Shown here in pieces: positions 10,613 through 33,851 of a stretch of DNA of 34,944 nt. Source of the stretch: Candidatus Nomurabacteria bacterium. Its GTDB lineage: Bacteria > Patescibacteriota > Saccharimonadia > Saccharimonadales > Saccharimonadaceae. The first letter of the stretch is position 1, and every line of letters begins with the position of its first letter. A model generated the notes under the pieces. The model was not told where the DNA came from and searched no databases. It saw nothing but the letters and a program-made list of their open reading frames with translations. A program made the position numbers and the translations under genes. The DNA is taken from the NCBI GenBank assembly GCA_031266275.1, contig JAISBI010000010.1:1-34944 (forward strand), written 5' to 3'.

Positions 10613-10618
10613 GTCTTT

Positions 10619-10647: not shown

Positions 10648-10659
10648 GTTTGCTATAAT
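10631..10659 (+). promoter_or_regulatory. Promoter of the small-membrane-protein/mscL unit
   Basis: -35 CTGACT (10631-10636), 17-nt spacer, -10 TATAAT (10654-10659) preceded by TGC. The ATG at 10666 is 6 nt downstream, predicting a leaderless message. It shares bases 10631-10647 with the divergent uvrB promoter. Confidence 0.7.
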
Positions 10660-10665
10660 AACCAT

Positions 10666-10836
10666 ATGAAAAAGATTGAGAACCGGCATACTGAAACTAG
10701 TTTCGCGATTTTCATCGGCATCATCGTGGTGGTGTCGCTGATATTTTGCTTGGTTGGAATTTATCTTTATCAGAACAATGGCACGGTCAATCTCGATCGG
10801 TCACTGCCGCGTTATTTAACCAGTGAGGAGGAATGA
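10666..10836 (+). CDS. Small single-pass membrane protein, upstream of mscL
   Basis: 56 residues: a short charged N-terminus ([12 protein letters not shown]), one membrane segment at about 13-37 ([21 protein letters not shown]), and an acidic tail ending YLTSEEE. An upstream in-frame start at 10624 would lie before the promoter -10, so 10666 is the better choice. The stop overlaps the mscL start by 4 nt (ATGA), and its tail GAGGAGGA doubles as the mscL ribosome binding site. I do not recognise a family. Co-translation with the channel makes a role in envelope or osmotic homeostasis plausible, but nothing in the sequence proves it. Confidence 0.72.
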
Positions 10837-11267
10837 TGTCAACGATAGATAAAGGCTTGGACAAAGCGAGAGGCTTCGGCAAAGAGTTCAAAAAATTCGT
10901 CGGCAAAGGCAATGTCATCGATTTAGCGGTCGGCGTCATCATCGGCGGGGCGTTTGGCAAGATTGTTTCGTCGTTAGTGGATGACATTTTGATGCCGGCC
11001 ATTGGGGTTTTGCTGGGCGGGCTGGATTTTTCCACTTTGTCCGTCACGGTTGGCAAAGCCACTTTTGAATACGGCGTCTTCATTCAAAGCGTCATCGACT
11101 TTTTGATTATCGCGCTGAGCATTTTCGTGTTTGTGAAGTTGATCAGCAGGCTCGTTGACCGCAAAGATTCAGATGAAAAAGTCAAAGATAAGAAACTGGA
11201 AAAATTATCGGCCGAACAATTGGAAATCTTGAAAGATATTCACGCTACTTTGAAAAAGAAAAAATAG
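10833..11267 (+). CDS. mscL: Large-conductance mechanosensitive channel
   Basis: 144 residues. MscL forms a homopentameric pore that opens under membrane tension and dumps solutes on osmotic downshock. The N-terminal amphipathic helix [20 protein letters not shown], the first membrane helix ([22 protein letters not shown]), the DDILMP turn, a periplasmic loop with LGGLDFS, the second helix ([19 protein letters not shown]) and a C-terminal charged helical bundle ending in KKKK are all as expected. Translation can begin at either of two adjacent ATGs, with GAGGAGGA just before. It is convergent with recA, with only 5 nt between the stops and no obvious terminator. Confidence 0.96.
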
Positions 11268-11272: not shown

Positions 11273-12319
11273 TTAATCTTCTTCGGATTTTATTTTTTCG
11301 CGGATTTGTTTTTCGATTGATTTCAACAATTTCGGGTCGGAGCGCAAATATTCTTTGGCAGCTTCGCGGCCTTGACCAAGTTTTTGCTGTTTTTCGCCCT
11401 CGCCATAGTCAAACCAAGCACCAGCCTTATTGACGATACCGTGTTCGACACCGAGATCGAGGATGTCGCCGACGGCGCTGATGCCCTCATTGAACATGAT
11501 GTCGAATTCGGCCGTGCGGAACGGCGGCGCGACTTTGTTTTTGACAATTTTGACTTTGGTGCGGTTGCCGATGACTTCGTCGCCCTCTTTAATTTGGCCG
11601 ATGCGGCGAATGTCCATGCGCAATGACGCATAAAATTTCAGAGCGTTGCCGCCGGTCGTGGTTTCTGGATTGCCGAACATGACACCAATTTTCATGCGAA
11701 TTTGGTTGATGAAAATCACGGTTGCTTTGGATTTGTTGATGATACCGGTCAATTTGCGCAGGGCTTGGCTCATCAAACGAGCTTGCAGGCCGGGCAGGCT
11801 GTCGCCCATGTCGCCGTCGATTTCTGCTTGCGGCACTAACGCCGCCACCGAGTCCAAAACTATCAAATCAACCGCGTTGGATCGGACGAGCGTTTCGAGA
11901 ATTTCCAATGCCTGTTCGCCGCTGTCTGGTTGGCTGACCAATAAATTAGCCGTGTCTACGCCGATGCGTTTGGCGTAAACTGGATCGAGTGCATGCTCGG
12001 CGTCGATGAAAGCCGCCGTGCCGCCTTGTTTCTGCATTTCAGCGATAGCGTGCAAAGTCAGAGTCGTTTTGCCAGAGCTTTCCGGTCCGTAAATCTCAAC
12101 GATGCGGCCTTTTGGATAACCGCCGCCCATCGCCAAATCCAAACTCAGCGCACCTGATGGATAAGTTTCGATGTCAATATTATAAGCGTCGCCCAATTTC
12201 ATAATCGAACCAGAACCGAACTGTTTGGTAATCTGATCGACCGCCAGACCCAACGCCGCCGCTTTTCCGTCAGCGTCCGTCGATTTCTCGGACATCGTTT
12301 TTGTTGCTTTTTTCGCCAT
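11273..12319 (-). CDS. recA: Recombinase RecA
   Basis: 348 residues, the canonical RecA length; an ATP-dependent strand-exchange protein for homologous recombination and SOS signalling. Visible are [11 protein letters not shown] in the N-terminal part, Walker [11 protein letters not shown], the [15 protein letters not shown] segment, Walker B-type [12 protein letters not shown], loop L1 around [19 protein letters not shown], loop L2 with [18 protein letters not shown], and a C-terminal acidic tail. A good Shine-Dalgarno (AAGGAG at 12326-12331) precedes the ATG, and an extended -10 lies 44 nt up. Unlike most first genes here, recA therefore has a real leader. No LexA-like box was recognised. 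Confidence 0.98.
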
Positions 12320-14895: not shown

Positions 14896-15666
14896 ATGGA
14901 TAAGGTTTTACGACGTCGGCGCAATACTGTTTTGGGGGTGGTTTTAATCGTTTGTTTGGCGTTTTTACTTTATCTCGCGGGGCAGAAATTACCCGTCGAC
15001 GATACGATGGCCGAAATCGATCCGGTGACGGTCGTCGAATATGATGCGGAAACTGACGAGTTTACAGATTATCTCGGCGAAACGGTTTCGGCGAGTCCGT
15101 TGGCGCTGGACGAGTTGCATAAATTACTCGTCAAAGATTGGGCCGCCCATGACGGCTATAGTCGCGACAAGTTTTTGAGTTCTGGCAATTGGAATAAATG
15201 GAATGATTGCAACACGCGCGAGAAAATTCTGGGCCGCGACTTAGACGAAATCATTTACGATGGCAATGGTTGCACGGTTCTGTCTGGAATTTTGCACGAT
15301 CCATACACCGGCAAGACTATCAATTTCACACGCGGCAGCAGCACATCCAGCGCCGTGCAAATCGATCACGTGGTGGCGCTGAGCAATGCTTGGGCGACCG
15401 GCGCGCAAGATTTGGATTCCGCTACGCGCAATCGTTTCGCCAATGACGATTTGAATTTACTGGCAGTGGACGGACCGGCCAATATGCAAAAATCCGACAA
15501 TGACGCGTCCGCATGGCTGCCGTCGAACAAAGGTTTCCGTTGCGAATACGTCGCGCGGCAAATCGCCGTCAAAGTCAAATATGCGCTGTGGCTCCGGCTG
15601 GCTGAATTTGAAGCGATGAACAATGTGCTGTCGAGCTGTCCCGAGCAGCCCATGCCTACGCCGTAG
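14896..15666 (+). CDS. Membrane-anchored or secreted HNH (DUF1524-type) nuclease
   Basis: 256 residues. A basic N-terminus (MDKVLRRRRN) and one hydrophobic segment (about 11-29, TVLGVVLIVCLAFLLYLAG) form a signal anchor or uncleaved signal peptide. The rest would face outside. The HNH core is VQIDHVVALSNAWATGA (Asp157-His158) followed by LNLLAVDGPANMQKSDNDAS (Asn/Lys/Asp ligands) and WLP. This is the arrangement of DUF1524 secreted nucleases common in Actinobacteria and Saccharibacteria. Four cysteines (105, 126, 216, 248) could form two disulfides, fitting an extracytoplasmic enzyme. A likely job is to degrade DNA from the host or surroundings to feed a nucleotide auxotroph; that is inference. 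Its 3' end overlaps the aspS 3' end by 11 bp in convergent orientation. Confidence 0.9.
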   Translation: MDKVLRRRRNTVLGVVLIVCLAFLLYLAGQKLPVDDTMAEIDPVTVVEYDAETDEFTDYLGETVSASPLALDELHKLLVKDWAAHDGYSRDKFLSSGNWNKWNDCNTREKILGRDLDEIIYDGNGCTVLSGILHDPYTGKTINFTRGSSTSSAVQIDHVVALSNAWATGAQDLDSATRNRFANDDLNLLAVDGPANMQKSDNDASAWLPSNKGFRCEYVARQIAVKVKYALWLRLAEFEAMNNVLSSCPEQPMPTP

Positions 15667-18456: not shown

Positions 18457-18465
18457 TGATATAAT
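18457..18465 (+). promoter_or_regulatory. Promoter of the DGR template RNA and cassette
   Basis: TGATATAAT: extended -10 (TGa plus TATAAT, 18460-18465) with no good -35. Transcription should begin near 18472, about 47 nt before the template repeat. Confidence 0.6.
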
Positions 18466-18518
18466 ACAATATCAGCAGTATAAGTAATTTACTGCTGCGG
18501 ACTTAGGCGCTAAGTGAC

Positions 18519-18697
18519 AGCTGTCTCCAGCAACACTCAGTCTTGGGGGTCAGACAACTCTAACTTCGTGAACTCCAGCAACCCGTGGTTCATTCGGGGT
18601 GGCAACAGCAACAATGGCTCCAACGCAGGGCTGTGGAACTCCAACAACAATTCGGGCAATAGCAACAACAACATCGGGTTTCGGGTTGTTCTCGGTA
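18519..18697 (+). repeat. DGR template repeat (TR)
   Basis: 179 nt aligned, on the opposite strand, to the last coding bases of the giant gene (20597-20778). All 16 substitutions between the two are at TR adenines: seven A to T, seven A to G, two A to C. Read in the VR frame the template holds 17 AAC/AAT codons, 13 of which are changed in VR (to Tyr, Asp, Ala, Ser, His, Gly), plus ATC to TTC. The final 24 nt up to GTTCTCGGTA are identical in TR and VR and would be the initiation-of-mutagenic-homology segment. The stretch is open in that frame, but it is a template, not a gene. Confidence 0.96.
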
Positions 18698-18813
18698 CAA
18701 AAATAACACGCAGCTGAAAGTAGGATCTCTCTCAAAAGAAAGACCGAAAGGCTAGAAAATTATACGCGCGCTTAAGCACCTTTCGCTCTTCAAACAGCGA
18801 TAAAAAATATATA

Positions 18814-18871
18814 CGCCCTGTATTTTGACTAGATTATGAAATATCATTTCATAGGCTCAACCTCTAGGGCG
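18814..18871 (+). other. Nested stem-loop in the TR-avd spacer
   Basis: An outer stem CGCCCT (18814-18819) with AGGGCG (18866-18871) encloses a perfect 8-bp hairpin, TATGAAAT with ATTTCATA (18835-18853), with loop ATC. It is followed directly by the terminator-like stem. This looks like the structured spacer that DGR reverse transcriptases need for priming. Confidence 0.5.
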
Positions 18872-18877
18872 CCACCT

Positions 18878-18912
18878 AAAGTAGCACCTCTTTCAAAGGT
18901 GCTACTTTTTAT
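18878..18912 (+). terminator. Intrinsic terminator or attenuator between TR and avd
   Basis: AAAGTAGCACCT and AGGTGCTACTTT form a perfect 12-bp stem with a 7-nt loop, ending in a run of Ts. It lies 22 nt before the avd ATG, so most transcripts may stop here as TR RNA, with read-through giving avd-RT. Confidence 0.7.
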
Positions 18913-18933
18913 ATCAATTAACAATGGAGAAAT

Positions 18934-19281
18934 ATGGAACTTACTAATAGCCTCAACCAACTAATTAACTATTTGGTTTGCCAAATCGTACCCAAAATGT
19001 CACGCTCTGGGCGTCGCATATTGGATATTTTGACGACACAGCTTTTCACGGCCCAAGAGATAACTGTGACTATCCAATTGGAACACAGTAATAATGCGCG
19101 TCTGAAAGAACAGCTACTCGAATTATGCGTCAAATTACAAATGGCTTACAATTTGACTAAAAGCTTATATAATGCCCGCGTCATCACCAAAAAACAGCTC
19201 GACAGCATCTATAAACGTCTAGCCGCAACGCAAACTATCGCTCACGGCTGGCGCAATAAACTAAACAAGGAGAACAAATGA
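18934..19281 (+). CDS. avd: DGR accessory variability determinant (Avd)
   Basis: 115 residues, the size of Avd, which forms a pentameric, positively charged four-helix-bundle barrel that binds the reverse transcriptase and template RNA. The protein is all-helical in appearance, with basic helices (KMSRSGRRILDILTTQLF, KSLYNARVITKKQLDSIYKR) and a C-terminal HGWRNKLNKENK. Identity rests on size, composition and place: it is directly upstream of a DGR-type RT, overlapping its start by 4 nt (ATGA). GGAGA lies 5 nt before the ATG at 18934. It is downstream of TR, unlike the Bordetella phage order (avd before TR), an order also seen in other DGRs. Confidence 0.88.
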   Translation: MELTNSLNQLINYLVCQIVPKMSRSGRRILDILTTQLFTAQEITVTIQLEHSNNARLKEQLLELCVKLQMAYNLTKSLYNARVITKKQLDSIYKRLAATQTIAHGWRNKLNKENK

Positions 19282-20387
19282 AACATCAATTAAATAACAA
19301 ATTTAACCTCGCTTTGAATTACCAAAACTTAGAAGGTGCTTATCGACGAGCCAAGCGTAATAAATTAGGCAACGAAAAAATCGCCGCTTTTGAAAAAGAT
19401 TTGGAATATAATCTAACAACGCTATTGAAAGAATTGACCAATCAAACCTACAGACCGGGTGCTTACTACAAGTTCATGATTCATGAACCAAAAGAACGTC
19501 TGATTTGGGCCTTACCTTTCCGTGACCGTGTAGTCCAACAATGGTTTGTTGAGGAGCTAATCATCCCTCACTTTGTGCCAAAGTTTTCGTATGACAGTCA
19601 CGCTTGCGTGCGCGAGCACGGAACACACCTCGCTTACAAACGCTTGCAAAGATTTTTGCATTACGGAGAATATGCCATCAAAATGGACATTTCTAAGTTT
19701 TTCCCCAGCATCAACAAAGACATCTTGTGGAAGGTTTTGCAGCGCGAGATAAAAGATGGCCAAGTTTTATGGTTAGCCCGAACTTTCGTCTATGACACGC
19801 CAAATACCAAAGGCATTCCAATTGGCAACTATACCAGCCAATATTTTGCCAATATTTACTTAAATGAACTCGACCAATATATTAAGCGCGAGCTCAAAGT
19901 CCGGAACTATATCAGGTATATGGACGACTTCGTTCTGATTTGCGGCAGCAAAGACGAAGCTTTGAAGCTTTTCGAGCAATGTCGGGAATTTTTGCAGCAA
20001 AAATTAGACCTGCAATTAAATGGCAAATCACGCATCATCAAAATCAGTCGAGGCGTGCCATTTTGTGGCTTTACTATCTTCCCGACTCATATCAAACTGA
20101 GCCAAAACAATAAACGCTCTGTCAAACATATGGTGAGAAAGTTTCGAGTTGATCATGACAGAGAAGCTTTTTTGGCTAGTTTGACGGGCTGGCGGGCTCA
20201 TGTGTCGCATGCGAACAGTTATAATTACCAAACTAAAATTTATCGAGAGATTTGCGCCGAATTTTTTGATTTGGCGATAAGCTGTCCGCATCACGAAGAG
20301 TTCCAGCCGGATTGCATGGATTGCTATGCGGCAGAAATGGACAGACGACATATTTGGGAGATTTTGCGGGAGTTTTTGGCTGAATGA
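19278..20387 (+). CDS. DGR reverse transcriptase
   Basis: 369 residues. It copies the TR RNA into cDNA and misincorporates opposite adenines, which then replaces VR (retrohoming). Fingers/palm markers are PKERLIWALPFRDRVVQQW (RT motif 1/2 region), the first catalytic Asp137 in IKMDISKFFPSI, IPIGNYTSQYFANIYL (residues 180-195), and YMDD with Asp216 and Asp217. The S-Q in the IGNYTSQ segment, in place of the QGxxxSP of group II intron and retroviral enzymes, is the DGR signature. There is no maturase or endonuclease domain. The C-terminus carries CPHH (336-339) and CMDC (346-349), a possible small zinc site. AAGGAGA lies about 5 nt before the ATG. It is convergent with its target gene. Confidence 0.95.
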   Translation: MKHQLNNKFNLALNYQNLEGAYRRAKRNKLGNEKIAAFEKDLEYNLTTLLKELTNQTYRPGAYYKFMIHEPKERLIWALPFRDRVVQQWFVEELIIPHFVPKFSYDSHACVREHGTHLAYKRLQRFLHYGEYAIKMDISKFFPSINKDILWKVLQREIKDGQVLWLARTFVYDTPNTKGIPIGNYTSQYFANIYLNELDQYIKRELKVRNYIRYMDDFVLICGSKDEALKLFEQCREFLQQKLDLQLNGKSRIIKISRGVPFCGFTIFPTHIKLSQNNKRSVKHMVRKFRVDHDREAFLASLTGWRAHVSHANSYNYQTKIYREICAEFFDLAISCPHHEEFQPDCMDCYAAEMDRRHIWEILREFLAE

Positions 20388-20395
20388 TGGATTGA

Positions 20396-20540
20396 GATTG
20401 CTTCGCTGCGCTCGCAATGACGAGGGGGAGGGTCGCAATGACATATTCCCATCACGTCTTTGCGAGGCAACTTTGTTGCCGAAGCAATCTGTAGTCGTGG
20501 ATTGCTTCGCCGACAAGTCGGCTCGCAATGACGGGAGGGG
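20396..20540. repeat. Cluster of palindromic repeats between RT and target gene
   Basis: Three related units: GATTGCTTCGCTGCGCTCGC plus AATGACGAGGGGG (from 20396), an inverted one with the perfect stem GGCAAC-TTT-GTTGCC (20455-20490), and a third with CCGAC-AA-GTCGG between GATTGCTTCG and CTCGCAATGACGGGAGGGG (20499-20540). A further GTCGCAATGAC fragment lies at 20432-20442. The same family occurs at 4019-4054. It fills the 3' end of the DGR cassette. Confidence 0.8.
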
Positions 20541-20544
20541 TACT

Positions 20545-20576
20545 ACGCGGAATCGTAGATTCCGCGTTGGTTTTTT
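20545..20576 (+). terminator. Terminator of the DGR operon, hairpin flanking VR
   Basis: ACGCGGAATC and GATTCCGCGT pair perfectly (10 bp, loop GTA), followed on the plus strand by TGGTTTTTT, a good intrinsic terminator for avd-RT. On the minus strand the hairpin begins 30 nt past the end of VR and may also play the part of the hairpin found downstream of VR in some DGRs. Confidence 0.75.
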
Positions 20577-20588
20577 AGTGTTTAGTAT

Positions 20589-23500
20589 TTAAAACTTACC
20601 GAGAACAACCCGAAACCCGAAGTTGTAGTTGCTATTGCCCGAATCGCCGTTGGAGTGCCACAGCCCTGCGTAGGAGCCATAGTCGCTGTAGCCACCCCGA
20701 ATGAACCACGGGTCGCTGGAGTACACGAAGCTAGAGAGGGCGTCTGACCCCCAAGACTGAGTGTAGCTGGAGACAGCTTGGCGAGTGCGCATTTCATGCA
20801 ACGAGTGGCCACCACAGGTCTCGAATAGACAATTGTCGAAGTTATAGTAGTATTCCGTGGTAGAGCTGCTCCAAGTGGCCTGAGCGCCGAATGGGGGCAC
20901 ATCATAGCGATTGAAGTTGGCGGGTTGCGACATAGTCGCCATATAGGTCGTAGATGAGATACCGCCACGATTAGCTTGGGTGTATTCCCATGCGCCACCG
21001 GCCAGGTCGTAAATACCATAAACATTACCAGTGGTGGAGGCTTCTTGGCCCGTAGTGGTTTCGTAGGTGTTGCAGGTCGCTTCGTAAGTGTCGGATTTGC
21101 TGGAGATTGGGCCACAACCAGTAGTGTATCGGTAGTTGGTGTTGCTGTTACTACTAGCACCATTATTATAGTAGCCATTGTTATAGACTTTGCGCTGATT
21201 TTTATCCCAGCCAGACATGACATTATTGTTGCCGTAGACGCCATAGCCAGAGGCGGACAAGACAGTGGCAGCACCCCAGTCGGAGTTTTTGGCTTGACGG
21301 GTCAAGGCGTCGTTTGAGAGGTTCATGGTGTTAGTATTGATGCCATCGGTATTAGTGACGGCATTTCCACCAGCCACGAGAGCAGCATTGGGCGACATGT
21401 TTTTAGCTATAGTAAACTGGGCGCCGATGTATTTATAAGTGATTGGGGCTTTATTGGGCTTGATGAAGATATTGGTCGGTTGAACATTCTGGCCACAGGA
21501 CACTGGGCTAGTAACTGTGTTGCCGACGCAATAGAAATCAGTACCAGTTTCAAACTTGCCCATCCACAGACCATTGAGCTCTTTGCCATCGTAAGTGAAG
21601 GCTGGGTGGGTAGCCCACGACGAATTATCATGGTCGGAAGCACCATCACCAGACGGTTTGACATCACTGACGCAGTCAGCGTACTTTTGGAAGTTAGTCG
21701 AGGTCGAGCAAGTCGGTTGAGGCGAGTTGGTCGGCATCTCGGTGGTTTCAAAGGCGATGTCGTAGCGAACTTGAGTGCTATCGGAGCAAGTGCGCGCATT
21801 ACCGGTGCCGGAAGTCGTGCCTTCGTAGCAGGATGGCTGGTCGACAGCGTCGCGGCGCTGGACATTGTAGGCGTAGCGCGGGACATAGACCCAGTGAGCG
21901 ACCGCCAGGTCTTCCATAGGCATGGATGGAGTGCCATCATCGTGATTGCCGTTGTTTTCAACAAAAGTGACGAACTCGGTCGGAGTAGCTGCTGTTTGAC
22001 CGCTGACGTTAAATTTGGCAAGATTGTTCGCAGGGTCCGTAGCGCATTCGGTCAAGCCACTATTATACGCCCAATTACCGGTTTCAGTTATTGACACGTA
22101 TAGGCCAGACTGATAAGCCAGCATATATTCACACATACTGTAAGCATCATCATATGGTACCTTACTCCAGTCATCATATAGCGTCACTGTATTGGCCCAT
22201 TTTTGCTGCTGGTAATCGTACCAGCTGCCATCATGCTGATCGGTGTCGTCGTTGCTGAAATCAAGTTGTCGCCACGAATTCGCATCCGTGTCATAGACAA
22301 CCGGTATCATATTAGCATCGATGTCTATGGCACAAGTCGAGTCATCGGTTGGGTCAAGCGAATCGTTGGTGCCTGCGTTCTTGCAAGGCGCCATGGCGGC
22401 TTCGTAGATGAATATGTCGGTGCCAGAAACGGCTATGTCGCCAGTGATACTGGTTATAGCGATACGGACGGAGCCAGTGTCAGTGTGGGCCGGAATATCG
22501 GAGCTGAGAGTAAGTATACTATTAGAGGAGTGGCTGGCGGTCTCAACTGGAGTTTGACCGCTATTGCACGAAGAATCAGCTGGATCGGCGTAGCCATAGT
22601 TGGCACAGGGGTCGAAGATAACTTGATGCACTAAGTCAGTAGAAGAGTAAGTCATGAAGTTATCGCCAGCGATGTCAGCGGCACCTGCATCAGAGTCGCC
22701 AGTAATCGGCGCCGATGGCGGGTTTATGCTAATCACAGCCGGAGCAGACACGGTGATGAAATCTATGGTAGCTTCCCCGCCATAGGTCGTAACGACGAGT
22801 GTGTGATCGCCAGCTGGGAAGTTATCTGAGCCGTCGTTAGCCGGGATGACGATACCGGTAATGGAGTTGCAGTCGCCAGACAGAGCGTAAGAGTCAACGG
22901 ATACGTCGGGCTTATCGGCAGTTCGGATAGTAACTGATTTGATGATGCCAGTACTACCAACGCAGTAGTTAGCGCCAGTGACCGAAACGTCAGAGGTGGC
23001 GTGAGCGGAACCGAAGATGGTTGTGCTGACGTCGTTTAGTTTCATGTCGGTAATGGTCGGAGCTTGAGTTACCGTGTCGACGTAATAGACGGCGTCTGTA
23101 CCTAGTGCACCACTGCTAACAGTCGTCGATGAGCCAGTGCCCGGGACATCAGTCGTGACAGTGACATTTTGTAGTCCAGCAGCCGGACCGCTTGGTAAAA
23201 CAATAGAAATCTTGGTCGGACCGGTAATAGTGTAAGTGCCAACGGCTGTACCGCCCACTGTGACACCAGTAACGTATGATGTGCAGGTACTATCGCAATA
23301 TTCGAAGTTAGTGCCGGTAATTTCGAAACTGTCGCCAGCTTTGCCGTAGGCCTGACGATCAGTTTCAGGGCTCTCTGGGCAAGCGCCGGTGGATTGGCAA
23401 GTCTTGGTGACAGTGGCTGGATAGGTGTAGAGAATTTGCACACTAGCCGAACCAACCGGCGTATGGATTGTGACGGTGTGGTTGCCTGGTGTACTAGATG

Positions 23501-26500
23501 GTAAAGCCACGCCATTAGAATTGCAGTTTGGATCGGGAGTGGCATTATTACATAGTGTTGTGCTATCGAACATGACTTGGGTAATGACCCAATTTGGCGT
23601 AGCGGCGTGATCTTGGAGATTATCGCCAGTTAGACTGATCGGCCCTCCTGCAATCGTCATTGAAGTGACCGGCAAGCCGGAGACATTAACGACGAGATTA
23701 TCCGGCGCATAGAGATAATCAGCTTTGGTCGAGGCGCTACCACCAACCGTCGTGACGATGACATCTTGCAAGCCAACTGTATTTTCTAAATTTGGTGCTG
23801 TACAGATTATATTAGTGGGCACGATGGTCGGGCTAGTGCAAGCTTGTCCGGCGATAGTGATGGTCGTGCCACCGGTAACATCCAAGTTTTCGCCTGTTAT
23901 AGTGACTGTCTGTTCCTCGTCCGAATATGATGTGTAGGCCTTTAGATAGATATTATTATTGCTACGTGAGGTTACGATAGATGAAATAGTCGGGGCTGGG
24001 ATATAGAGCACAGCGTCTGTACCGACGGTTGCAGTTGAGGTCGATGAATAATCTGTGCTATTGATAGTCGTCGTGACAATGATGTTTTTGACTGGATTAC
24101 TCAAATTGCTCTGCGGTGGCAGAACAACACTAATAACAGTATCTGAAGTGACGGAATATGTATCGACCGGCAAATCTACATCGCCAATAGTAATCCCTTT
24201 GACGAGATTGGTCGCGCCAACTTTGAAACCAGTGCCGATAATCTCGAAACTGGTACCAGCTTTACCATAAGTGACGGAAGTTTCATCAGATTTGTAGGCC
24301 TGAGTAACGGTCGGAGCGGCGACGTAAGTGTAAGCATTTGTACCCGTGGTCTGACCGCCGTAGGTCGTGATGACGACGTCTTTGCTGCCGGCCGTACTGG
24401 CTGGAGCATTGCAAGTCAATTGCGTACCGCTGGTCACATTTATACTAGTGCAGGCCGCGCCGCCAATAGTTACAGCGGAAACTACGCTGCTGCCACCAAC
24501 ATTTCTGAGATTGCTGGCGGTGATGGTCACTGAGCTACCAGTCGTGATGCCATAGGTCGGTGATATACTCGAGTATACGGGAGCACTCAGCGATTCAACG
24601 GTTTTATCCACATTGGACGTGCCGCCGGCGTTGGTGACTTGAATATAATAGACTCCGGCGGTGGTCAAATTGGGAGCAGTGCATGTTATTATAGTGCTGC
24701 TAGTATCAGTAGGCAACGAGCAGTTCAGGGCTGCTGAGAAATCGGACGAATTGCTGCTGATTTTCACTTCATTATCACCGTAGGTCGAACCAGTTACGAA
24801 ATTAGCACCGTTGATAGTCAGTTGGGTAGTAGCATCGCTAGACTTGATGTAATTAGGAGAAACTGAATCTATGGTCGGGGCAGCAAGATAGGTATACCTG
24901 GTATTAGTATTAGTAGTAGAGGTACCGTAGTTCGTCACAGTGACGTGGACTGTACCGGTGCCAGTCGGAACTGTGGCGGTGATTTGAGTATCGCTATTAA
25001 CCGTATAAGACGTCGCGTTAACAGTACCGAATTTGACCGCATCGGCGCCGGTCGTACCATCAAAGTGCGCTCCAGTGATGACGACCGTGTCACCAGTTTT
25101 GCCGTAATTCTTGGTCAATGATGTAACGGTCGTGGAAGCATAAGTGTAAATCGCATTGTTGCTAGTACCGGTGCCAGCCGGGTTAGTGACACTGATTTTG
25201 ACCGCACCAGCATCGTGGCCTGTGGTCGTACAGGTCAAGCGGTGGTTGCCGGAATCGTCTGTCGTGACGGCTGGCGAAGTACAATTAGCCGCTGTGCCAC
25301 CACTATCCAATACCACACTACTGACGACGAAGGTACCGGCGGCATTCTTGAAATTAGTACCCGTCACGGTGATGAGAGTCTGACCAGTCGGTGCGCCATA
25401 AGTCGGCGAAACCTCAGTGATAGTCGGGACGTCAATGGTATAAAATGTGAAAGTGCCAGATGTGCCACCATAAGTCTCGACTGCGACAGTATGAGATCCA
25501 GCCGCCAAGCCACTACCGACCGGTATAGTGATACCAGTGATACTACCATCGGTCGCTGTCGTCCAAGCCGTTGCATTGATTGAACCATCAACTTTGACTC
25601 CCTTTACGATATCGACACTATTAACTTTGAAGTTGGTACCGGTCAGGCTAGCGCCGGTGATATTAACGCCGCTGGCTGAGCTGTAAGTGATATTAGCGCC
25701 ATTGGTTTGACCATTCATGGCTGTGACAGTTGGAGCCGGAGCGTACCAGACCGCGCTGGTGCCGAGAGTCGACGTATCGCCGCTGTCAGAAACGAGGCTG
25801 TCTTTGGTCGTATAAACTTTGACTAACTGTTGGCCGTCGACAGCAGCAGGTAATGTGACCGTGATGCTATCAGTGGCAGTGACTGTATAGTTTGCACTTG
25901 AGACCTCTACTCCGCCGACTTCAACCTTGCTGACAATGGAACTACCGCCGAAGAAGAAGTTAGAGCCTTGAACCGTGAACGTGTCACCAGCTTTGCCGTA
26001 TGGCACGTTGATATTTGAACTCTGTCCGACTTTAGTGACTGTCGGCGCATCGACATAGTTTAGAGTAGTAGTGACTGGGCCGCCGCCATAAGTCGACAGC
26101 GAAACTGTATAGCTACCGGCCGACAATTCTGGAACGAGGAAGTATAGTCTACCCTCGCCAGCTTCGTCTGTCAAGACAGTCATGTCTCCAGTGGAAATCA
26201 AGTCATCACCAACTTTCAATTGGCTGACGACTGAACTGCCGCTGGAATTTTTGAGGACGGCATTGCCTTCATATAGCGTGAGATAGAGCCCGGACGAGCT
26301 GGCCGAAATACTGTATGAGCCTGAGCCGTCAAAGCTGATCGTACCAGGCGCGGCCAGATATTCGGCTGTTCCGTTAACGGTCGATGAGCCGCTGATGTTG
26401 GTGGCGACGACGCTTTGTGCGCCAGCCGGCAATTGTGGCGCATTGCAAGTTATAGTCGTGTTATCCGTCACTAGCGCGCCAGAGCAAGCTGAGCCGCCGA

Positions 26501-29500
26501 TTGAAACAGTGGTGTCACCAATCGATGCGGCAGCAAAATTCGTACCCTTAATTATCATTGGGACGTTACTCTCGCTGGTTTTAATATAATCTGTGCCGCC
26601 GTTTCTCGTCACACGTTCTGCTCCGGTCACGGTTGGCGTTGGTACGTAAGTAAATGCGTCATTCTTGGTGGCGCTGCCTCCGGCAGTTTGAATCTCGAGG
26701 CCAACAGTAGTGATAGCGCTGGCTGACGAAGCTGGCACTGTGCAATCTAAAGTTGTTGCGCTAAAGCCATTGGCGTAGTCTACAACACAGGCATTGCCGC
26801 CGAGCAGAATTGTGGTGCCGCCGAACGCAGCGGTTTGGAAATTGGTGCCGGTAACCGTGACTTTCTTGCCGCCGGCGGTCTTGTCGTAGTTTTCGTTGAT
26901 AGTTGTGATGGTCGGTGCCGGCAAGTAGGTATAAGCACCGGTGAGAGTAGTGATTGATACGCCCGCCACCGCCAAAGTGACATTTTTAACGCCGACCGAG
27001 TTGCCTGCTGGCACAGTACAGGTTATTTGGGTAGTAGTGACGCCGGAAATTACGCACGAATTACCATCGATTTGCAAGTTATAAGCATCGGTAATTTCCG
27101 CCGTAGCGTCAAATCCAGTACCATCTATCGTTATAACGTTACCGCCAGTCAATGGGCCGTAGGCGGCAGTTGAAGCATCGATCTCGACAGGATTTATAGA
27201 CCCTGTATCAACATAATAAAATCCGCTGGTACTAGATTCAGGATAACTGCCGGCTGGGGTGGTAACTATAACTTCTTTCCAACCCACCGTGGTATTGGCT
27301 GGAGTCGTAAATACAACTTCGTTCGCACTGTTAACTGTAACACCTGTGGCGCTTATTCCGTCAATAGTGACCGTCGTGTTACCAGCACTGGCTCCTATAT
27401 TACCAGTCAAAGTTACCGTCGTACCGCCAGTCAATGGGCCTTCGTTCGGGCTGATTGACCATGTCCCGGCAGTATCGACAAAGTCAAATGTGACTGTACC
27501 GGAGGCGTTGCCGGCGCTAGTTGATAATGTCACAGGCACACCGGCTGCTTTCGCGTGAGCACCGGTAACGCAAGCGGCTGATGTCGCAGTAATCGTGCTA
27601 CAAGTCAGAGTCGCGTCGTCAATTTTCACAACTGTAGAACCAGTAGTATCAAAATTGGTACCCGCAATCTCTACGTGAGTGTTGCCGTAAATTGAGCCGG
27701 AAGTTGGACTGATGCTAGTAATTGTTGGTGGAGCCAAATAAGTATAACCGTTAGGCTTGGTGATGGTGTCGGCTATAGTGCTGACCGAAACATTGACCAA
27801 TCCGGCAGTGTGCGATGGAGTTGTGACGGTTATAGTTGTATCCGTGACTCCAGTGACAGTAGCTGCCGTACCACCGAAAGTGACACTGGTGATAATAGAA
27901 ACATGAGTATCTAACCGCGTGAAATTAGTTCCAGTGATAGTGACGGTTTGTCCGCCAGCAGACGGCCCAGAAATCGGGCTAATGGTACTAATAGTTGGAT
28001 CGTCAATATAATAGAAGCCTCCACCCGGTTGCGTTACCGCATAGTAGTTATTCGTACCGCCCAAAGTTTCCACGCGAACAGTTTGTTCGCCAGCAGCCAA
28101 TATACTAGTCGGGGCATTGCAGGTCACGGTCGCGCTGTCCACCACTGTTGGGTTGATGCATTCGCCGGTACCGATTGTGACGGTAGTCCAGTTAGGCACA
28201 AAGTTACTACCGGTAATGGTAATTACTGTACCACTGCCCACACTGCCGGCGATTGGAGAAACATCAGTAATAGTCGGCGGATCCACGACGATGACCGGCG
28301 TATTGGTAGTACTGACTTGGCCGCCATAAGCGTTAACCACGATGTCGTAATCGCCAGCTGTCAGACCAAGCGGCAATTTGAAGCTAAGGTTGGTGCCGCC
28401 GCCAGTGACGCTGACATCTGTTGCGTTCAAGCTATTGATGATAACTGTCGCGCCGTTCAAATTAGAGCCACTCACCGTGACTTCGTCAGCCGTATTGACC
28501 TGGTGGTAATTTCTGGTCACCGGGTTCAAGACTGGCGCATCGGCATAAGTAAATTCTTGTATTGAAGTGGCCATTGTAGCGACGGAATTTTTGGTACGCA
28601 CAAATATGATATGATAAGGCTCGTTAAGGAAAATGCCAATGTTGTCAACTGTCGGCATCTTAATGCGGATTTGCGTGTCACTATCAACGGTATAAGTGCC
28701 GTTGGGACTGGTAATCGGATCGAAGTCTTCTTTTTCCACAAAAACCAATGTGGCATTGGCAACATATGCTGGAACTCCTGTTGAGGGCGGGCCACTAGGC
28801 TCATTGATCGGGTACCCTAAGGCAGCATCTGAAATATTATTAAAATTACTTCCAGTAACAGTTAAAATGTCGCCTGCCTTGCCGGCAATCGCAGACAGTC
28901 CGTTCAAATTGATGACTGGTGGGGCAATATATGTCAAATCGGTTGTCGATGGGCCGCCGCCGTAGGTTTCGAGCGAAACCGTGACATTGATATCAGTTGT
29001 GATACTAAGATCTGTTGGTACTGTAAACGTCAAGGTACCTGCGCTAGTTACATCGAAAGTCGTATTTTCTGCATTGTTTACTTTAAATTCTTTAACGACG
29101 TTATTACCGACTGAATCTTGTAGAGAATTGGCCGCGTCGGTTAAAGTAATAAATATGGTTGCATCATTATATCTCACGCTGCTCGGGTTTAGCGACAGAG
29201 TGCCCGGCGCTACTAGTGACTCAACGATTGTATCTGTGTTTGACCCTCCGCCAGCATTAGTAACCTGAACGTAATAGGTTCCAGCAGCCAACGATTGTTG
29301 AACTGTGCAGGTTATAGAGGTAGTGGTCACGTCGGCGCTCGCATTAGCAATCGAACAGTTCGTAGCAAGTGAAAAGTCAGACGAATTGCTGCTAAGTTTG
29401 ACGACATTACCGCCATAGCCAGAAGCCTCTTCAACGAAGTTAGTACCTATAATAGTTAGCTGAGTAGAAGAATCGCTGACTTTAATATAATTATCATTAG

Positions 29501-32500
29501 CTGTTTCGACCGAAGTCACAGTTGGCGCCGGTAGATAAGTAAAATACGCGCTGGCACTGGTGCCGATTGAAGTTGTGACGGAAATAGCAACTGTACCGCT
29601 GCCAGATGGCATATTAGTCACAGTGACCTTGCCGTTTTCCACAACATAGCCTGTCGTGTAATCCGTGCCATCAATGGTGATTTTTGTGACAATACTGCTG
29701 CTATTAAACATGAAATTGGCGCCGTTGATTTCGACTTGATCGCCAGTTTTACCATGACTAGGGCTCAGGCTGGTGATAGTCGGGTCGTCGACATAACTAT
29801 AAGACGCATTCCCGCCACTGCCGCTGTCACCACCCGGGCTGGAAAGCACGACGTTGGCCGGATTAGCTTCGCTGGTGGCATAGGCTGGAACTGTCACGCC
29901 AACCGTGCCCGCACCGCAATCGACCGGAATTGAAATGGAAGCCGCATGACCGTTGATGGCCGCTGAAATCACGCTCGTGCCTGCTGCGTCGCAGAAGCCG
30001 GTACCAGTAATAGTGGCTTGATTGCCGCCGAGCATGGTGCCGTAATTGGCGCTGATGCTAGTAAATGTCGGTGCCGCCAGGTACTCGATTGCACTCCCCA
30101 AAAACGCTGATCCACTAACAGGCACAGCACCTATATTATTAACCGTTTGAACTGTTGCGTCGACCAGGCCTGCCTCATGTGTACCAATCGAGCACTGCAG
30201 ACTGACATCACTGAAATTAGTCGCATAATCAACCGTACAAGTATTACCGCCGACCAGGACCGTCGTACCGCCCAAAGCCGTGCCAACAAAGCCGCTCCCC
30301 GCCACAGTGACGACGGTCGAACCGTCGCTAACTTTGAGATAACCGCTGTTGCCGCCGTCAGTTCGTGCGACTGATGAAATAGTCGGGCTATCAATATATT
30401 GATAGGACTTGGTCGCGCTGCCAGTACTAGTCGTGATTACAACATTTTGCATACCGGTGCCAGCCGGCACATTATATATGGTAATTTGATCGTTTGGTGT
30501 GGTCGGGAGATCGGGCACGCCAGCACTGGCGGTAATAGCGTAGTACGGGCTGGTTCCAGAAGTGCCGACCGGAATCGTTACGTTATTGAAAACCACAGAA
30601 GTAACTATAGAAGCATGTGTCGAGCCATTCGTGAAACTGGCGCCGGTGCCGTTTGCCACGACTGAATTGCCGCCAATAGCCGGTCCGTAATTTGGTGATA
30701 ATGTCACATCGGCACTCTTCAATGCGTCCTGATAAGTGAACTTCTTAGCATTGTCGCTGCCGGAATCCTCACTGTCAACATAAGTATTGACAACCACCAT
30801 CTGTGCGCCGGCTGCTAAACCAGTTGGTGTGGTACAGCTCAAGCTCGTCGCAGTTATGCTACCAAGATCACATCCAGTAGTCGCGCCACCGATAGTAACC
30901 GACGTCACCAAAACATTCCCGTTGTCATCAATAAAACCAGACCCGGTGATGGCAACCGTCGTGCCAGCTACGCCAACATTCGGCGTGATGCTAGTATAAA
31001 CTAATGCGGGCAAATTCGGATTGAGGTCTTGATCAACGTCTATCGTGCCGCCGCCGATTGGCATATACATATCTTCGCCATTCGGGAAAATCACTGTGCC
31101 GCTCGAAGCTCCGCCAGCGTCGCCGAATGTAATTTCCCCGCCGCCGTTTGGCAATGGCAGGCTCGGAGAAATAGTTACCGATCCGCCACTAGCCGGACAA
31201 TATTGCGTGCCATCAGCGCTAGTCACACAACCGTCTTTAATAGTGACAGTACCGTCATCATTAAATTTGATGTTCGATCCGTCTTCAATTTCAATCGGGC
31301 CAACCGTACCGCCGTCTGGCAAAGTGAAGCTGCCATCATCCTCTATCTGTACATTGCCACCAGGTCCAATCGTGATTTCGTTATCGCCGTTCGTCAAGGT
31401 GCCACCGTCCGGCAAGGTAACCGACGAACCGTCATCATCAATATCCATGACTGTGTCAGTGCTGATCGTACCGTCTGGCGTGACGAAGTCCAAGCCTTGA
31501 CCTTGGCTATCAGTTGAGATGCTGCAGTTGGTCGGGATGGTTTGTGCCGCGATGATGGTTTCGTTCGGCAAGTTCACAGTGCCGACAACTGTCGTCACAT
31601 CGTTGTCAGTACGAGTGACGGTCATCGTGCCGCCGTTTGGAAATTCTAACGTACCGTCGGCTTTGACGATAACTTTTGGCGCAATGATGTAACCATTTTC
31701 GCACGGGAAACTAACCTTGGCGTTATCGCCAGGCTTCGGCGTGATAATGACGTCGCCGTTCGGATCAGTCTCGATCGTGCCATCTTTCGGTACGTCAACT
31801 TCTGTGCCGTTATCAAATATTATCTTACAACCGTCTTCATCGACACATTTAATGACACCGTCGTCTTCTTCGATGTCACCTTCGATGTCCTTAAAGTCAA
31901 CATATATAATATTTTTACTACTAGTTTGACCACCACTGGTTGTGACGATGACCTGCTTGGCACCCAAATCACCCTGTGTCGTCGTAATCTGACAAACTAT
32001 GGTATACGCATTGCTGGTTTCGGAATCTTTGACGATGCTAGTACCTGGGAAGCTAGACCCGTATTCACAAACCGGATCAGTGCCCGGGCTACCGGCACCA
32101 ATTGTCACGCGCGTAGTATTGGGACTACCAATGATATCGAAATTCGTGCCATGGATTGTGACGAAATGAGCTTGGCCGTCGGCGTTAACCGTCGGCGGAC
32201 TGACACTAGTTAAAGTCGGTGTCACGAGATAAGTATAACCGTTACTGATCACGGTCGTGCCGGAATCATTGTGAATCATGACGTCAACTGAAGAATTGTC
32301 GCCAGCCGGATTGGCAGGTGCTGTACATTCCAATTCCGTATCAGAAATGAAATTCATACTACCACAAGCTACTCCACCGATAGCTACATCCGTATCTGAC
32401 GTTAAATTCGCGCCAGTGATAGTTACTATATTGCCGCCGGCAGTCGGTCCGACGTTCGGCGTGATAGCGCCAACCGTCGGAAATGTGTCGTTTTCCGCAT

Positions 32501-33851
32501 AATAAACTAGCGACGCGTGATAAACACCGCTCGGCATGCTGTCGTTAACGTTGACCGCGACATAGACCGTCGTGACGTCGCCCGACACAATAGTACTATA
32601 ATGTTTTATTTGCATTTGGCCGTCAGACGACTCGATGCCGGCATATCGACCGGTCGTGGCCGTGTCGGTCCCGACGCTGTAGTCACTGTCGAAGCCGTTG
32701 GCAATGGTGGTGTCACCAGACTTTAGCGCGAAGCCCCAAGAATTAGCATCCAGCACAGACGGGAAAGTCATCGTGCCGATAGTGCGATTTATATCATTGC
32801 CAGATTCGGCTTCAATCCATAAATTATAACCGCTAGTAGCGCCAGAGTTGACCGTTACTTGTGAAGCGGTCGTCGATTGCTTAGTACTAGCCTCGCCTTT
32901 ACGTACATTGACCGTGATGTTTTGTTGAGCTAGCGAGATGCTCAATTCATTGCTGGCAGCGTACGACGGTGGAAAAACCGTATGAATGATACCGGCTGCC
33001 ACCAACGGCACCAAAATAGCCGGCGTGATTTGAAAGGCCACGCGGCGCAGTTTGTGCTTTTTGATGACTTTATCCACGTCGAGAATTTCAGTGTGCTTAT
33101 TGTCCAAATCACGCTTGATACGCTCTTCGGCTAATTTATTAACATCGAGAATTTCCGTCCTATCATCACCTTCGTGTTTCTTGAACATAGCGAAATCGAA
33201 ATTCTTGCCATGTTTCTGGTACTTATCGTTACTTTTAATAATCGCTCGGCGCAAGCCGTGATTTTTGATGCGACGGCGGATCAACCAAATGAAAATGCAA
33301 ATTAGCAAAAGCCCGACCAAGCCGATTGACAACAAAGCATAAATGGGCACTGATCGCCCGATAAAATCAACTTTATGAGTGAAAAATTCTAAAATGCCGG
33401 TGTTCGGCGTCAGTGGTGTTGGTGCTGGCGTCGGCTTGGCGACGACTCGGAATTTCCATATCTCTTCATGGCCACTAGTTTGGCCGGTGAATTTCATGAT
33501 ATATTCTCCAGGAGGAGCATCACCCGGTATCTTCCAATAAAAATCAATACAGCCAGCATCATCGGCCTTGATCATAGTATCAACGCCAAATTCGGTTTGT
33601 GTGACTCGGACATCTTCATCGTTGTCAAAATTACAATAATAAAGATGTACCTCTTCGTCATCTTCGACAGTTTTCGGATTCAAATCACCATCGGCATCGA
33701 GGACGTTGACTGTGATATTTTGCGTTTCGCTTTCAGTAGCAGCTGAAACCGGCAAAGAAATAGCGGTGTTTGAAACCGCTAAAAGCCCGACGGCCAACAG
33801 TGGTACTATTACTATTTTTTTTAGCATATCTCTTACATCATATTTCTTCAT
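20589..33851 (-). CDS. Giant IPT/TIG-repeat surface protein, DGR target with C-terminal lectin-like variable domain
   Basis: 4420 residues. Layout: signal peptide (1-38, ending SAA); a small Ig-like domain; TPNTG at 148-152 followed by a membrane helix (168-191) and RRRIK; a basic linker with two TEILDV motifs (232-259); a second membrane segment (273-293); then the outside part. About 31 IPT/TIG-like modules of roughly 85-110 residues run from 460 to 3810 (pattern APTITSVSP-YG-GG-VTITGTNF), broken by a Gly/Asp-rich segment (about 650-950). The C-terminal 600 residues match the formylglycine-enzyme/C-type-lectin fold (NVYGIYDLAGGAWEYT, PWFIRGG, FRVVL). Residues 4358-4418 are the VR. AGAGGA precedes the ATG by about 13 nt, inside the end of the upstream gene 6 nt away. 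It is probably a long adhesin for host attachment whose tip is diversified. Confidence 0.95.
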   Translation of the reverse strand: MKKYDVRDMLKKIVIVPLLAVGLLAVSNTAISLPVSAATESETQNITVNVLDADGDLNPKTVEDDEEVHLYYCNFDNDEDVRVTQTEFGVDTMIKADDAGCIDFYWKIPGDAPPGEYIMKFTGQTSGHEEIWKFRVVAKPTPAPTPLTPNTGILEFFTHKVDFIGRSVPIYALLSIGLVGLLLICIFIWLIRRRIKNHGLRRAIIKSNDKYQKHGKNFDFAMFKKHEGDDRTEILDVNKLAEERIKRDLDNKHTEILDVDKVIKKHKLRRVAFQITPAILVPLVAAGIIHTVFPPSYAASNELSISLAQQNITVNVRKGEASTKQSTTASQVTVNSGATSGYNLWIEAESGNDINRTIGTMTFPSVLDANSWGFALKSGDTTIANGFDSDYSVGTDTATTGRYAGIESSDGQMQIKHYSTIVSGDVTTVYVAVNVNDSMPSGVYHASLVYYAENDTFPTVGAITPNVGPTAGGNIVTITGANLTSDTDVAIGGVACGSMNFISDTELECTAPANPAGDNSSVDVMIHNDSGTTVISNGYTYLVTPTLTSVSPPTVNADGQAHFVTIHGTNFDIIGSPNTTRVTIGAGSPGTDPVCEYGSSFPGTSIVKDSETSNAYTIVCQITTTQGDLGAKQVIVTTSGGQTSSKNIIYVDFKDIEGDIEEDDGVIKCVDEDGCKIIFDNGTEVDVPKDGTIETDPNGDVIITPKPGDNAKVSFPCENGYIIAPKVIVKADGTLEFPNGGTMTVTRTDNDVTTVVGTVNLPNETIIAAQTIPTNCSISTDSQGQGLDFVTPDGTISTDTVMDIDDDGSSVTLPDGGTLTNGDNEITIGPGGNVQIEDDGSFTLPDGGTVGPIEIEDGSNIKFNDDGTVTIKDGCVTSADGTQYCPASGGSVTISPSLPLPNGGGEITFGDAGGASSGTVIFPNGEDMYMPIGGGTIDVDQDLNPNLPALVYTSITPNVGVAGTTVAITGSGFIDDNGNVLVTSVTIGGATTGCDLGSITATSLSCTTPTGLAAGAQMVVVNTYVDSEDSGSDNAKKFTYQDALKSADVTLSPNYGPAIGGNSVVANGTGASFTNGSTHASIVTSVVFNNVTIPVGTSGTSPYYAITASAGVPDLPTTPNDQITIYNVPAGTGMQNVVITTSTGSATKSYQYIDSPTISSVARTDGGNSGYLKVSDGSTVVTVAGSGFVGTALGGTTVLVGGNTCTVDYATNFSDVSLQCSIGTHEAGLVDATVQTVNNIGAVPVSGSAFLGSAIEYLAAPTFTSISANYGTMLGGNQATITGTGFCDAAGTSVISAAINGHAASISIPVDCGAGTVGVTVPAYATSEANPANVVLSSPGGDSGSGGNASYSYVDDPTITSLSPSHGKTGDQVEINGANFMFNSSSIVTKITIDGTDYTTGYVVENGKVTVTNMPSGSGTVAISVTTSIGTSASAYFTYLPAPTVTSVETANDNYIKVSDSSTQLTIIGTNFVEEASGYGGNVVKLSSNSSDFSLATNCSIANASADVTTTSITCTVQQSLAAGTYYVQVTNAGGGSNTDTIVESLVAPGTLSLNPSSVRYNDATIFITLTDAANSLQDSVGNNVVKEFKVNNAENTTFDVTSAGTLTFTVPTDLSITTDINVTVSLETYGGGPSTTDLTYIAPPVINLNGLSAIAGKAGDILTVTGSNFNNISDAALGYPINEPSGPPSTGVPAYVANATLVFVEKEDFDPITSPNGTYTVDSDTQIRIKMPTVDNIGIFLNEPYHIIFVRTKNSVATMATSIQEFTYADAPVLNPVTRNYHQVNTADEVTVSGSNLNGATVIINSLNATDVSVTGGGTNLSFKLPLGLTAGDYDIVVNAYGGQVSTTNTPVIVVDPPTITDVSPIAGSVGSGTVITITGSNFVPNWTTVTIGTGECINPTVVDSATVTCNAPTSILAAGEQTVRVETLGGTNNYYAVTQPGGGFYYIDDPTISTISPISGPSAGGQTVTITGTNFTRLDTHVSIITSVTFGGTAATVTGVTDTTITVTTPSHTAGLVNVSVSTIADTITKPNGYTYLAPPTITSISPTSGSIYGNTHVEIAGTNFDTTGSTVVKIDDATLTCSTITATSAACVTGAHAKAAGVPVTLSTSAGNASGTVTFDFVDTAGTWSISPNEGPLTGGTTVTLTGNIGASAGNTTVTIDGISATGVTVNSANEVVFTTPANTTVGWKEVIVTTPAGSYPESSTSGFYYVDTGSINPVEIDASTAAYGPLTGGNVITIDGTGFDATAEITDAYNLQIDGNSCVISGVTTTQITCTVPAGNSVGVKNVTLAVAGVSITTLTGAYTYLPAPTITTINENYDKTAGGKKVTVTGTNFQTAAFGGTTILLGGNACVVDYANGFSATTLDCTVPASSASAITTVGLEIQTAGGSATKNDAFTYVPTPTVTGAERVTRNGGTDYIKTSESNVPMIIKGTNFAAASIGDTTVSIGGSACSGALVTDNTTITCNAPQLPAGAQSVVATNISGSSTVNGTAEYLAAPGTISFDGSGSYSISASSSGLYLTLYEGNAVLKNSSGSSVVSQLKVGDDLISTGDMTVLTDEAGEGRLYFLVPELSAGSYTVSLSTYGGGPVTTTLNYVDAPTVTKVGQSSNINVPYGKAGDTFTVQGSNFFFGGSSIVSKVEVGGVEVSSANYTVTATDSITVTLPAAVDGQQLVKVYTTKDSLVSDSGDTSTLGTSAVWYAPAPTVTAMNGQTNGANITYSSASGVNITGASLTGTNFKVNSVDIVKGVKVDGSINATAWTTATDGSITGITIPVGSGLAAGSHTVAVETYGGTSGTFTFYTIDVPTITEVSPTYGAPTGQTLITVTGTNFKNAAGTFVVSSVVLDSGGTAANCTSPAVTTDDSGNHRLTCTTTGHDAGAVKISVTNPAGTGTSNNAIYTYASTTVTSLTKNYGKTGDTVVITGAHFDGTTGADAVKFGTVNATSYTVNSDTQITATVPTGTGTVHVTVTNYGTSTTNTNTRYTYLAAPTIDSVSPNYIKSSDATTQLTINGANFVTGSTYGDNEVKISSNSSDFSAALNCSLPTDTSSTIITCTAPNLTTAGVYYIQVTNAGGTSNVDKTVESLSAPVYSSISPTYGITTGSSVTITASNLRNVGGSSVVSAVTIGGAACTSINVTSGTQLTCNAPASTAGSKDVVITTYGGQTTGTNAYTYVAAPTVTQAYKSDETSVTYGKAGTSFEIIGTGFKVGATNLVKGITIGDVDLPVDTYSVTSDTVISVVLPPQSNLSNPVKNIIVTTTINSTDYSSTSTATVGTDAVLYIPAPTISSIVTSRSNNNIYLKAYTSYSDEEQTVTITGENLDVTGGTTITIAGQACTSPTIVPTNIICTAPNLENTVGLQDVIVTTVGGSASTKADYLYAPDNLVVNVSGLPVTSMTIAGGPISLTGDNLQDHAATPNWVITQVMFDSTTLCNNATPDPNCNSNGVALPSSTPGNHTVTIHTPVGSASVQILYTYPATVTKTCQSTGACPESPETDRQAYGKAGDSFEITGTNFEYCDSTCTSYVTGVTVGGTAVGTYTITGPTKISIVLPSGPAAGLQNVTVTTDVPGTGSSTTVSSGALGTDAVYYVDTVTQAPTITDMKLNDVSTTIFGSAHATSDVSVTGANYCVGSTGIIKSVTIRTADKPDVSVDSYALSGDCNSITGIVIPANDGSDNFPAGDHTLVVTTYGGEATIDFITVSAPAVISINPPSAPITGDSDAGAADIAGDNFMTYSSTDLVHQVIFDPCANYGYADPADSSCNSGQTPVETASHSSNSILTLSSDIPAHTDTGSVRIAITSITGDIAVSGTDIFIYEAAMAPCKNAGTNDSLDPTDDSTCAIDIDANMIPVVYDTDANSWRQLDFSNDDTDQHDGSWYDYQQQKWANTVTLYDDWSKVPYDDAYSMCEYMLAYQSGLYVSITETGNWAYNSGLTECATDPANNLAKFNVSGQTAATPTEFVTFVENNGNHDDGTPSMPMEDLAVAHWVYVPRYAYNVQRRDAVDQPSCYEGTTSGTGNARTCSDSTQVRYDIAFETTEMPTNSPQPTCSTSTNFQKYADCVSDVKPSGDGASDHDNSSWATHPAFTYDGKELNGLWMGKFETGTDFYCVGNTVTSPVSCGQNVQPTNIFIKPNKAPITYKYIGAQFTIAKNMSPNAALVAGGNAVTNTDGINTNTMNLSNDALTRQAKNSDWGAATVLSASGYGVYGNNNVMSGWDKNQRKVYNNGYYNNGASSNSNTNYRYTTGCGPISSKSDTYEATCNTYETTTGQEASTTGNVYGIYDLAGGAWEYTQANRGGISSTTYMATMSQPANFNRYDVPPFGAQATWSSSTTEYYYNFDNCLFETCGGHSLHEMRTRQAVSSYTQSWGSDALSSFVYSSDPWFIRGGYSDYGSYAGLWHSNGDSGNSNYNFGFRVVLGKF
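20597..20778 (-). repeat. DGR variable repeat (VR)
   Basis: 182 nt at the very end of the giant gene, ending 5 nt before the stop codon begins. It matches TR over its length except at 16 TR adenines and one extra codon (CTC at about 20736-20738) after the second template AAC. Changed residues include Tyr, Asp, His, Gly, Ser and Ala, the set expected from AAC randomisation and typical of ligand-binding surfaces on DGR lectin folds. It lies in inverted orientation to TR, 1.9 kb away. Confidence 0.96.
23710..29530 (-). repeat. Higher-order repeats of four IPT/TIG modules within the giant gene
   Basis: Three blocks of about 1.2 kb (roughly 28285-29530, 25435-26640 and 23710-24885) each have the same order of module subtypes. 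First comes a module with YIKVSD, YIKTSE or YIKSSD, then an APGT-type one (YGGGP endings in two of the three), then a GKAGD/GKAGT one, then a fourth. Shared strings include SSNSSDFS (first and third block), APGT with SL(E/S)TYGGGP (first and second), and GTSAV/GTDAV before the fourth. This points to segmental duplication. Boundaries are approximate. Confidence 0.6.
31000..31900 (-). other. Gly/Asp-rich segment interrupting the IPT/TIG array
   Basis: About 300 residues (roughly 650-950) with repeated short LPDGGT, FPNGGT and PNGG turns, interspersed with DDDGS and DGT, and a few Cys (KCVDEDGCK, FPCENG). It is unlike the modules on either side and resembles short beta-solenoid or calcium-binding type repeats by composition only. 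Confidence 0.55.

Follow-up and report, generated by a model that had tools for sequence, protein, structure and literature searches.

The stretch of DNA analysed here, a 34,944-nucleotide window from a Candidatus Nomurabacteria genome, carries a diversity-generating retroelement (DGR) that is complete by all features examined and that, judging from its mutation spectrum, appears to have been used recently. Its template repeat (TR), avd, reverse transcriptase (RT), and target gene are all present, which bears out the complete DGR with adenine-only mutagenesis proposed in a preliminary description of the sequence. As a whole, the likely account is that this element rewrites a head borne on a very long, membrane-held stalk and so alters what the tip binds. 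The type of DGR is already known, and its union with a stalk of 31 modules appears to be new.

The template, its target sequence, and the retrohoming genes

Local alignment of the TR (18519-18697, forward strand) with the variable region (VR), read on the reverse strand from 20778 to 20597, covers 179 bases and contains 16 mismatches, all of which are TR adenines (eight A>T, six A>G, and two A>C). The coordinates and the count given in the preliminary description are thereby reproduced. Adenines make up 47 of the 179 TR bases, and the probability that 16 of 16 mismatches would fall on them if positions were random is 5.6e-11. The changes lie at codon position 1 (13 cases) or 2 (three cases), and they affect 13 of the 17 AAY codons that the TR holds in the target frame without creating a single stop. 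Among the new VR residues are six Tyr, one Phe, three Asp, one Gly, and one His. The VR (20597..20778, reverse strand), which makes up the final ~60 codons of the target gene, has one codon (3 bp) more than the TR, a point absent from the earlier description; an earlier TR with a second AAC at this place could explain it. At their 3' ends the two repeats share 24 identical bp in which the sole A is the last base, so that the TR closes with an almost A-free segment, TCGGGTTTCGGGTTGTTCTCGGTA, predicted to be IMH*-like, with its VR counterpart predicted to be IMH-like. The DNA on either side of the TR is unrelated to that flanking the VR. As a control, two templates were compared: the TR of this locus and that of the relative G011 differed at 39 of 166 positions, split between 9 of 44 A and 30 of 122 other bases with no adenine excess. 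Adenine is therefore not favoured when templates are compared with each other, whereas the changes from template to target fall on A only. The genus is represented by a single genome among those compared, and a search of viral contigs for population variants of the VR returned none.

Both avd and the RT gene lie between the TR and VR on the TR strand, with the target gene convergent to them. The accessory variability determinant gene, avd (18934..19281, forward), encodes 115 residues predicted to form a four-helix bundle. Its identity is weak from its own sequence, which matches Pfam bAvd at E=1e-3, under the cut-off, and clear from its homologues and modelled fold. Of eight aligned Avd homologues, taken from loci of the same RT clade, seven match bAvd (best 3e-16), and the top PDB match of the AF2 model (pLDDT 89) is the Bordetella phage Avd, 4dwl, with TM-scores of 0.82/0.88. 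The 369-residue RT (19278..20387, forward) matches PF00078 (E=4e-18) and phrog_1423 Reverse transcriptase (E=2e-109) and contains YMDD together with IGNYTSQ, an instance of the DGR-type (I/L/V)GxxxSQ found in place of QGxxxSP. Both genes are intact open frames. That avd and an RT with these two motifs separate TR from VR had been read from the sequence beforehand, and the reading agrees with the open reading frames, the Pfam and PHROG matches, and the Avd fold.

Several candidate signals accompany these genes. An extended -10 box (TGATATAAT, 18460..18465, forward) was picked out by eye for the TR transcript, and it is a weak candidate because a consensus promoter scan gives no promoter there. 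Directly before avd, a 12-bp hairpin followed by a short T-rich stretch (18878..18908, forward) possibly marks the end of the TR RNA. More distinctive is an unstranded inverted repeat located 29 nt past the VR (20545..20567), with a perfect 10-bp stem and a 3-nt loop; such a stem arose in 0 of 500 shuffles of the stretch. For phage DGRs, hairpins 4 to 34 bp past the VR are reported to have stems of 7 to 10 bp that vary in sequence and loops that are conserved (Guo et al. 2011, PMC3240598), and the spacing seen here falls inside this range. The 4-nt GRNA loop of the BPP-1 type is absent from the sense strand; the loop is TAC, as it is in G011. In that relative the same core (AATCGTAGATT) is part of an 11-bp hairpin that has another outer stem and sits between the RT remnant and the target gene, and the 11-bp core occurs once in the genome under study and once in G011, each time at the DGR element. 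Hairpins with 7-12-bp stems follow the VR in six of the seven other RT-clade members examined, G011 among them, while their occurrence in the other DGR clades of the family is inconsistent. The inverted repeat thus fits a putative homing hairpin or cruciform of a new loop type. Alternatively or in addition, it may act as a terminator for avd and RT, since a run of T's comes after it in the RT direction. A repeat of the type GATTGCTTCG...CGCAATGACG recurs in the adjoining spacer between RT and target gene (20400-20540) and is probably a palindromic element of the dispersed kind.

Head, stalk, and base of the target protein

The target gene (33851-20589, reverse strand) encodes the variable protein. 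The preliminary description called it a 4420-residue adhesin: the length is that of the open reading frame, and the adhesin function is suggested only indirectly, from the architecture of the protein and from the DGR-mutated pilins described below.

The head takes up residues 3831-4420 (20589..22361, reverse). Compared with all PDB chains, its AF2 model (590 residues, 47 aligned sequences, pLDDT 75.9, pTM 0.85) is most similar to TaqVP, then to Mtd and TvpA, all three of them solved DGR variable proteins, and then to formylglycine-generating enzymes (FGE). The TM-scores against TaqVP, 0.27 of query and 0.40 of target, are modest and therefore back the fold class of the head and not its details; low scores to the solved variable proteins are due in part to the larger size of the head. 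The modelled end of the protein thus supports the C-type-lectin/FGE-type fold that had been expected, with the VR inside it at the C-terminus. By sequence, the head has no match to Pfam FGE-sulfatase (PF03781) up to E=1, and a search of PDB sequences with the head alone likewise returned none; a paralogue from the same genome reaches E=0.009 against PF03781, under the cut-off. Across 393 genomes of the order, the head family was seen solely within the bacterium's own family.

Head paralogues occur on other contigs of the same genome (C12, C16, C18, C25, C33, and C34; L012-L017). There the head is followed by a second domain that resembles, by eye, the Fibrobacter succinogenes major paralogous domain, and most of the contigs end inside sequence common to the head-paralogue genes. 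These paralogues were rejected as current extra VRs on account of mismatches at all four bases; a partial A excess suggests that they may be former targets of the TR.

Between head and base extends the stalk (residues 458-3816; 22404..32480, reverse), in which 31 IPT/TIG modules were counted with an HMM built iteratively from the TIG modules of this same protein, in line with the approximate count reported previously for the span leading to the head. The Pfam model PF01833 alone scores 487 bits over 19 stretches, over its cut-off. A repetitive non-TIG stretch breaks the array at about residues 652-949. A collapsed assembly repeat is unlikely, as even the closest two modules share just 61% DNA identity. 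Ig-type modules are about 4 nm long, and the reach of the stalk is estimated from this at roughly 120 nm.

The base (32481..33851, reverse) is made up of a signal-peptide-like N-terminus, an NTG motif, two predicted membrane segments, and a short domain. The membrane segments, at residues about 172-192 and 271-293, are read from sequence and agree with the N-terminal membrane segments already proposed. Proteins of G014, G109, and G059 have a similar base, and matches across the family are weak. A base module common to window positions 32981-33851 and to L065, L129, and L212 runs from the NTG motif through a membrane segment and a short cytosolic stretch to the second membrane segment, and it looks like two surface-protein starts fused.

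Relatives and further retroelements in the family

In a tree of 56 RTs, built by a quick method only and with G052 as a long branch, the RT falls in a fully supported group of nine. Of the other eight, five are from further genomes of this family and three from Bacilli MAGs of the rabbit gut. Adenine-dominated TR/VR pairs are present at six of these eight loci, and the targets at the related loci are 519-789 aa long, carry related heads, and lack a TIG array; the stalk is therefore a feature special to the 4420-aa locus. The relative G011 holds a decayed copy of the element (L211 2191-5487, contig C30) that keeps the order of TR, RT remnant, and convergent gene with related head. Its RT remnant corresponds to codons 294-369 and is 62% identical, avd and most of the RT having been deleted, and its TR still contains Asn codons. 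The G011 genome has at least 10 further head copies; considered as targets of its decayed TR, they were rejected since their A excess is just partial.

TIG matches occur in 39 of 295 genomes of the family, in frames of up to 6781 aa. The other giant TIG proteins examined were discarded as equivalents, as they have no head match and carry other end domains; the 6781-aa frame itself (L201/L202, G056 contig C2) combines TIG and RCC1-like repeats with an end that looks, by eye, like a histidine kinase. Proteins of 1367-1386 aa in G106 and G052 unite TIG modules with a related head, and no matching TR for them was found in the stretches examined.

The same 0.79 Mb genome contains a second, unrelated DGR (contig C41, L018 9142-11446) with an RT of another clade (9142-10122), a target gene (10142-11125), a VR (10998-11109), and a TR (11335-11446). 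Adenines account for 19 of its 21 mismatches, its target is a 327-aa frame without a recognisable domain, and it looks like the CPR clade 2 type. A third RT frame, 336 aa long and unlike both DGR RTs, lies close to the end of contig C41 (L003 1441-2451).

Other DGR lineages of the family place the mutated domain on a different carrier. In G202 (L072 7322-10841) and G063 (L073 7163-10238), the targets begin like type IV pilins, with the methylation motif at the N-terminus, and carry an FGE domain; the pilin and FGE matches both exceed the Pfam cut-offs, and the VR is at the C-terminal end. At L065, L066, L072, L073, L075, and L076, the RT gene lies on the strand opposite the template (A) strand of the TR, and the TR RNA would therefore need a separate promoter. 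The DGR of G014 is adjoined by a sortase-like frame (L065 8603-9193, TLYTC motif, by eye), and its target has an LANTG motif near the N-terminus. Within the window, a frame with a GmrSD C-terminal nuclease-type domain (PF07510, E=1e-15) is situated at 14896-15666, between aspS and glyS.

Proposed function and comparison with known systems

The proposed mechanism begins with a complex of RT and Avd, which would copy the TR RNA into cDNA, placing random bases at the adenine positions. This cDNA would then replace the VR in the 3'-terminal part of the convergent gene, and retrohoming could alter as many as about 17 head residues, most of them specified by Asn codons. The stalk, membrane-held near the N-terminus, would show the head at its free end, where each rewrite would change tip binding; the most likely ligand is the surface of another cell. 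Present-day retrohoming, surface display, this ligand, host binding, and episymbiosis are steps that we infer. A role in surface contact is supported by the FGE heads that other DGR lineages in the family mutate on type IV pilins. A Saccharibacteria-like origin within Patescibacteria would fit the 0.79 Mb genome size and the gene content. Host binding by one cultured Saccharibacterium is driven or aided by a type IV pilus, and adhesins acting at close range are presumed (PMC12206443).

A different use of the same element would be escape, in which the DGR is real and the mutated tip alters a surface site used by phages, a partner, or a predator. A virus-host arms race may diversify surface targets (Roux et al. 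2021, PMC8144416), and the stalk would carry the tip far outside the cell. However, the heads keep ligand-binding-type folds on stalk or pilins, an arrangement more natural for a binder, and the mutated VR is rich in Tyr, as is typical of binding surfaces, which makes escape rather unlikely. It is a little less likely again that the element is a recent fossil, now dead after a last retrohoming in the recent past. The VR codon missing from the TR implies a change after or during the last exchange, and G011 illustrates how a close relative can possess the same element minus avd and most of the RT; against this stand the intact frames of RT and avd, the 0 mismatches outside adenines, and the intact homing-type hairpin. 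Although related RTs occur in IMG/VR contigs, membership in a prophage is very improbable given the housekeeping neighbours aspS, glyS, recA, and uvrB and the position of the viral RTs outside the supported nine-member clade. That the TR is a decayed copy of the target-gene end with an adenine pattern due to chance or mutational bias can be dismissed almost entirely: several head paralogues in the genome do make gene fragments conceivable, but the chance value calculated above is minute, RT and Avd adjoin the TR, and the paralogues differ from it at all four bases with a partial A excess.

Under the favoured reading, a mutable tip that changes what the cell binds, the architecture suggests a way for a dependent microbe to keep altering what it adheres to. 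The rewritten tip would be a concrete candidate for partner-cell recognition in tiny host-dependent bacteria, with 17 predefined mutable codons traceable in metagenome reads. DGR targets in genomes of this kind often lack recognisable domains, and this one offers a readable architecture for them. The interest of the element lies in the stalk and in the repeated appearance, within one bacterial family, of mutated heads on three carriers: the stalk, pilins, and short anchors. It is possible, and we put this forward tentatively, that FGE heads mutated by DGRs serve as a portable module for recognition that recurs in the family, set on the giant TIG stalk, on type IV pilins (G202, G063), or on short membrane anchors (G014, G109). 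Together these would make up a system of targeted evolution for recognising partners, the stalk lineage having its own conserved-loop homing hairpin.

The preliminary description held that the giant stalk with such a head had not been described. A search of mainly open-access literature found no DGR with a TIG stalk, and the claim of novelty is limited to that extent. It stands with one caveat, a 4623-aa LapA-type adhesin of Pseudomonas costantinii that has been named as a DGR target, in which a single repetitive protein contains 21 VRs and A-to-N substitutions are few; the few substitutions and many repeats mean that it is perhaps not a true DGR (PMC6642488). Both proteins are giant, but here there is a single C-terminal VR with A-only changes. 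CPR clade 2 DGRs are abundant in small Patescibacteria-type genomes such as this one, and their targets are usually without transmembrane or other recognisable domains (Roux et al. 2021, PMC8144416), whereas the 4420-aa target has TIG modules and membrane segments read from its sequence. The cellular targets TaqVP of Thermus aquaticus and TvpA of Treponema are among the top fold matches of the modelled head, yet they have no giant TIG stalk, and sequence similarity is near noise (E=0.06). Within the family, the DGRs of G014 and G109 share the RT clade, a related head, and a base with two membrane segments, and they differ in having 680-681-aa targets without TIG and an RT on the strand opposite the TR. 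The BPP-1 DGR (Mtd, Avd, bRT) has in common with the present element the A-specific transfer from TR to VR, the Avd fold, the RT motif type, a C-type-lectin head, and an inverted repeat past the VR. Unlike it, the present element is cellular, its target is convergent to TR-avd-RT, its hairpin loop is TAC in place of GRNA, and its head is carried on a stalk of 31 modules.
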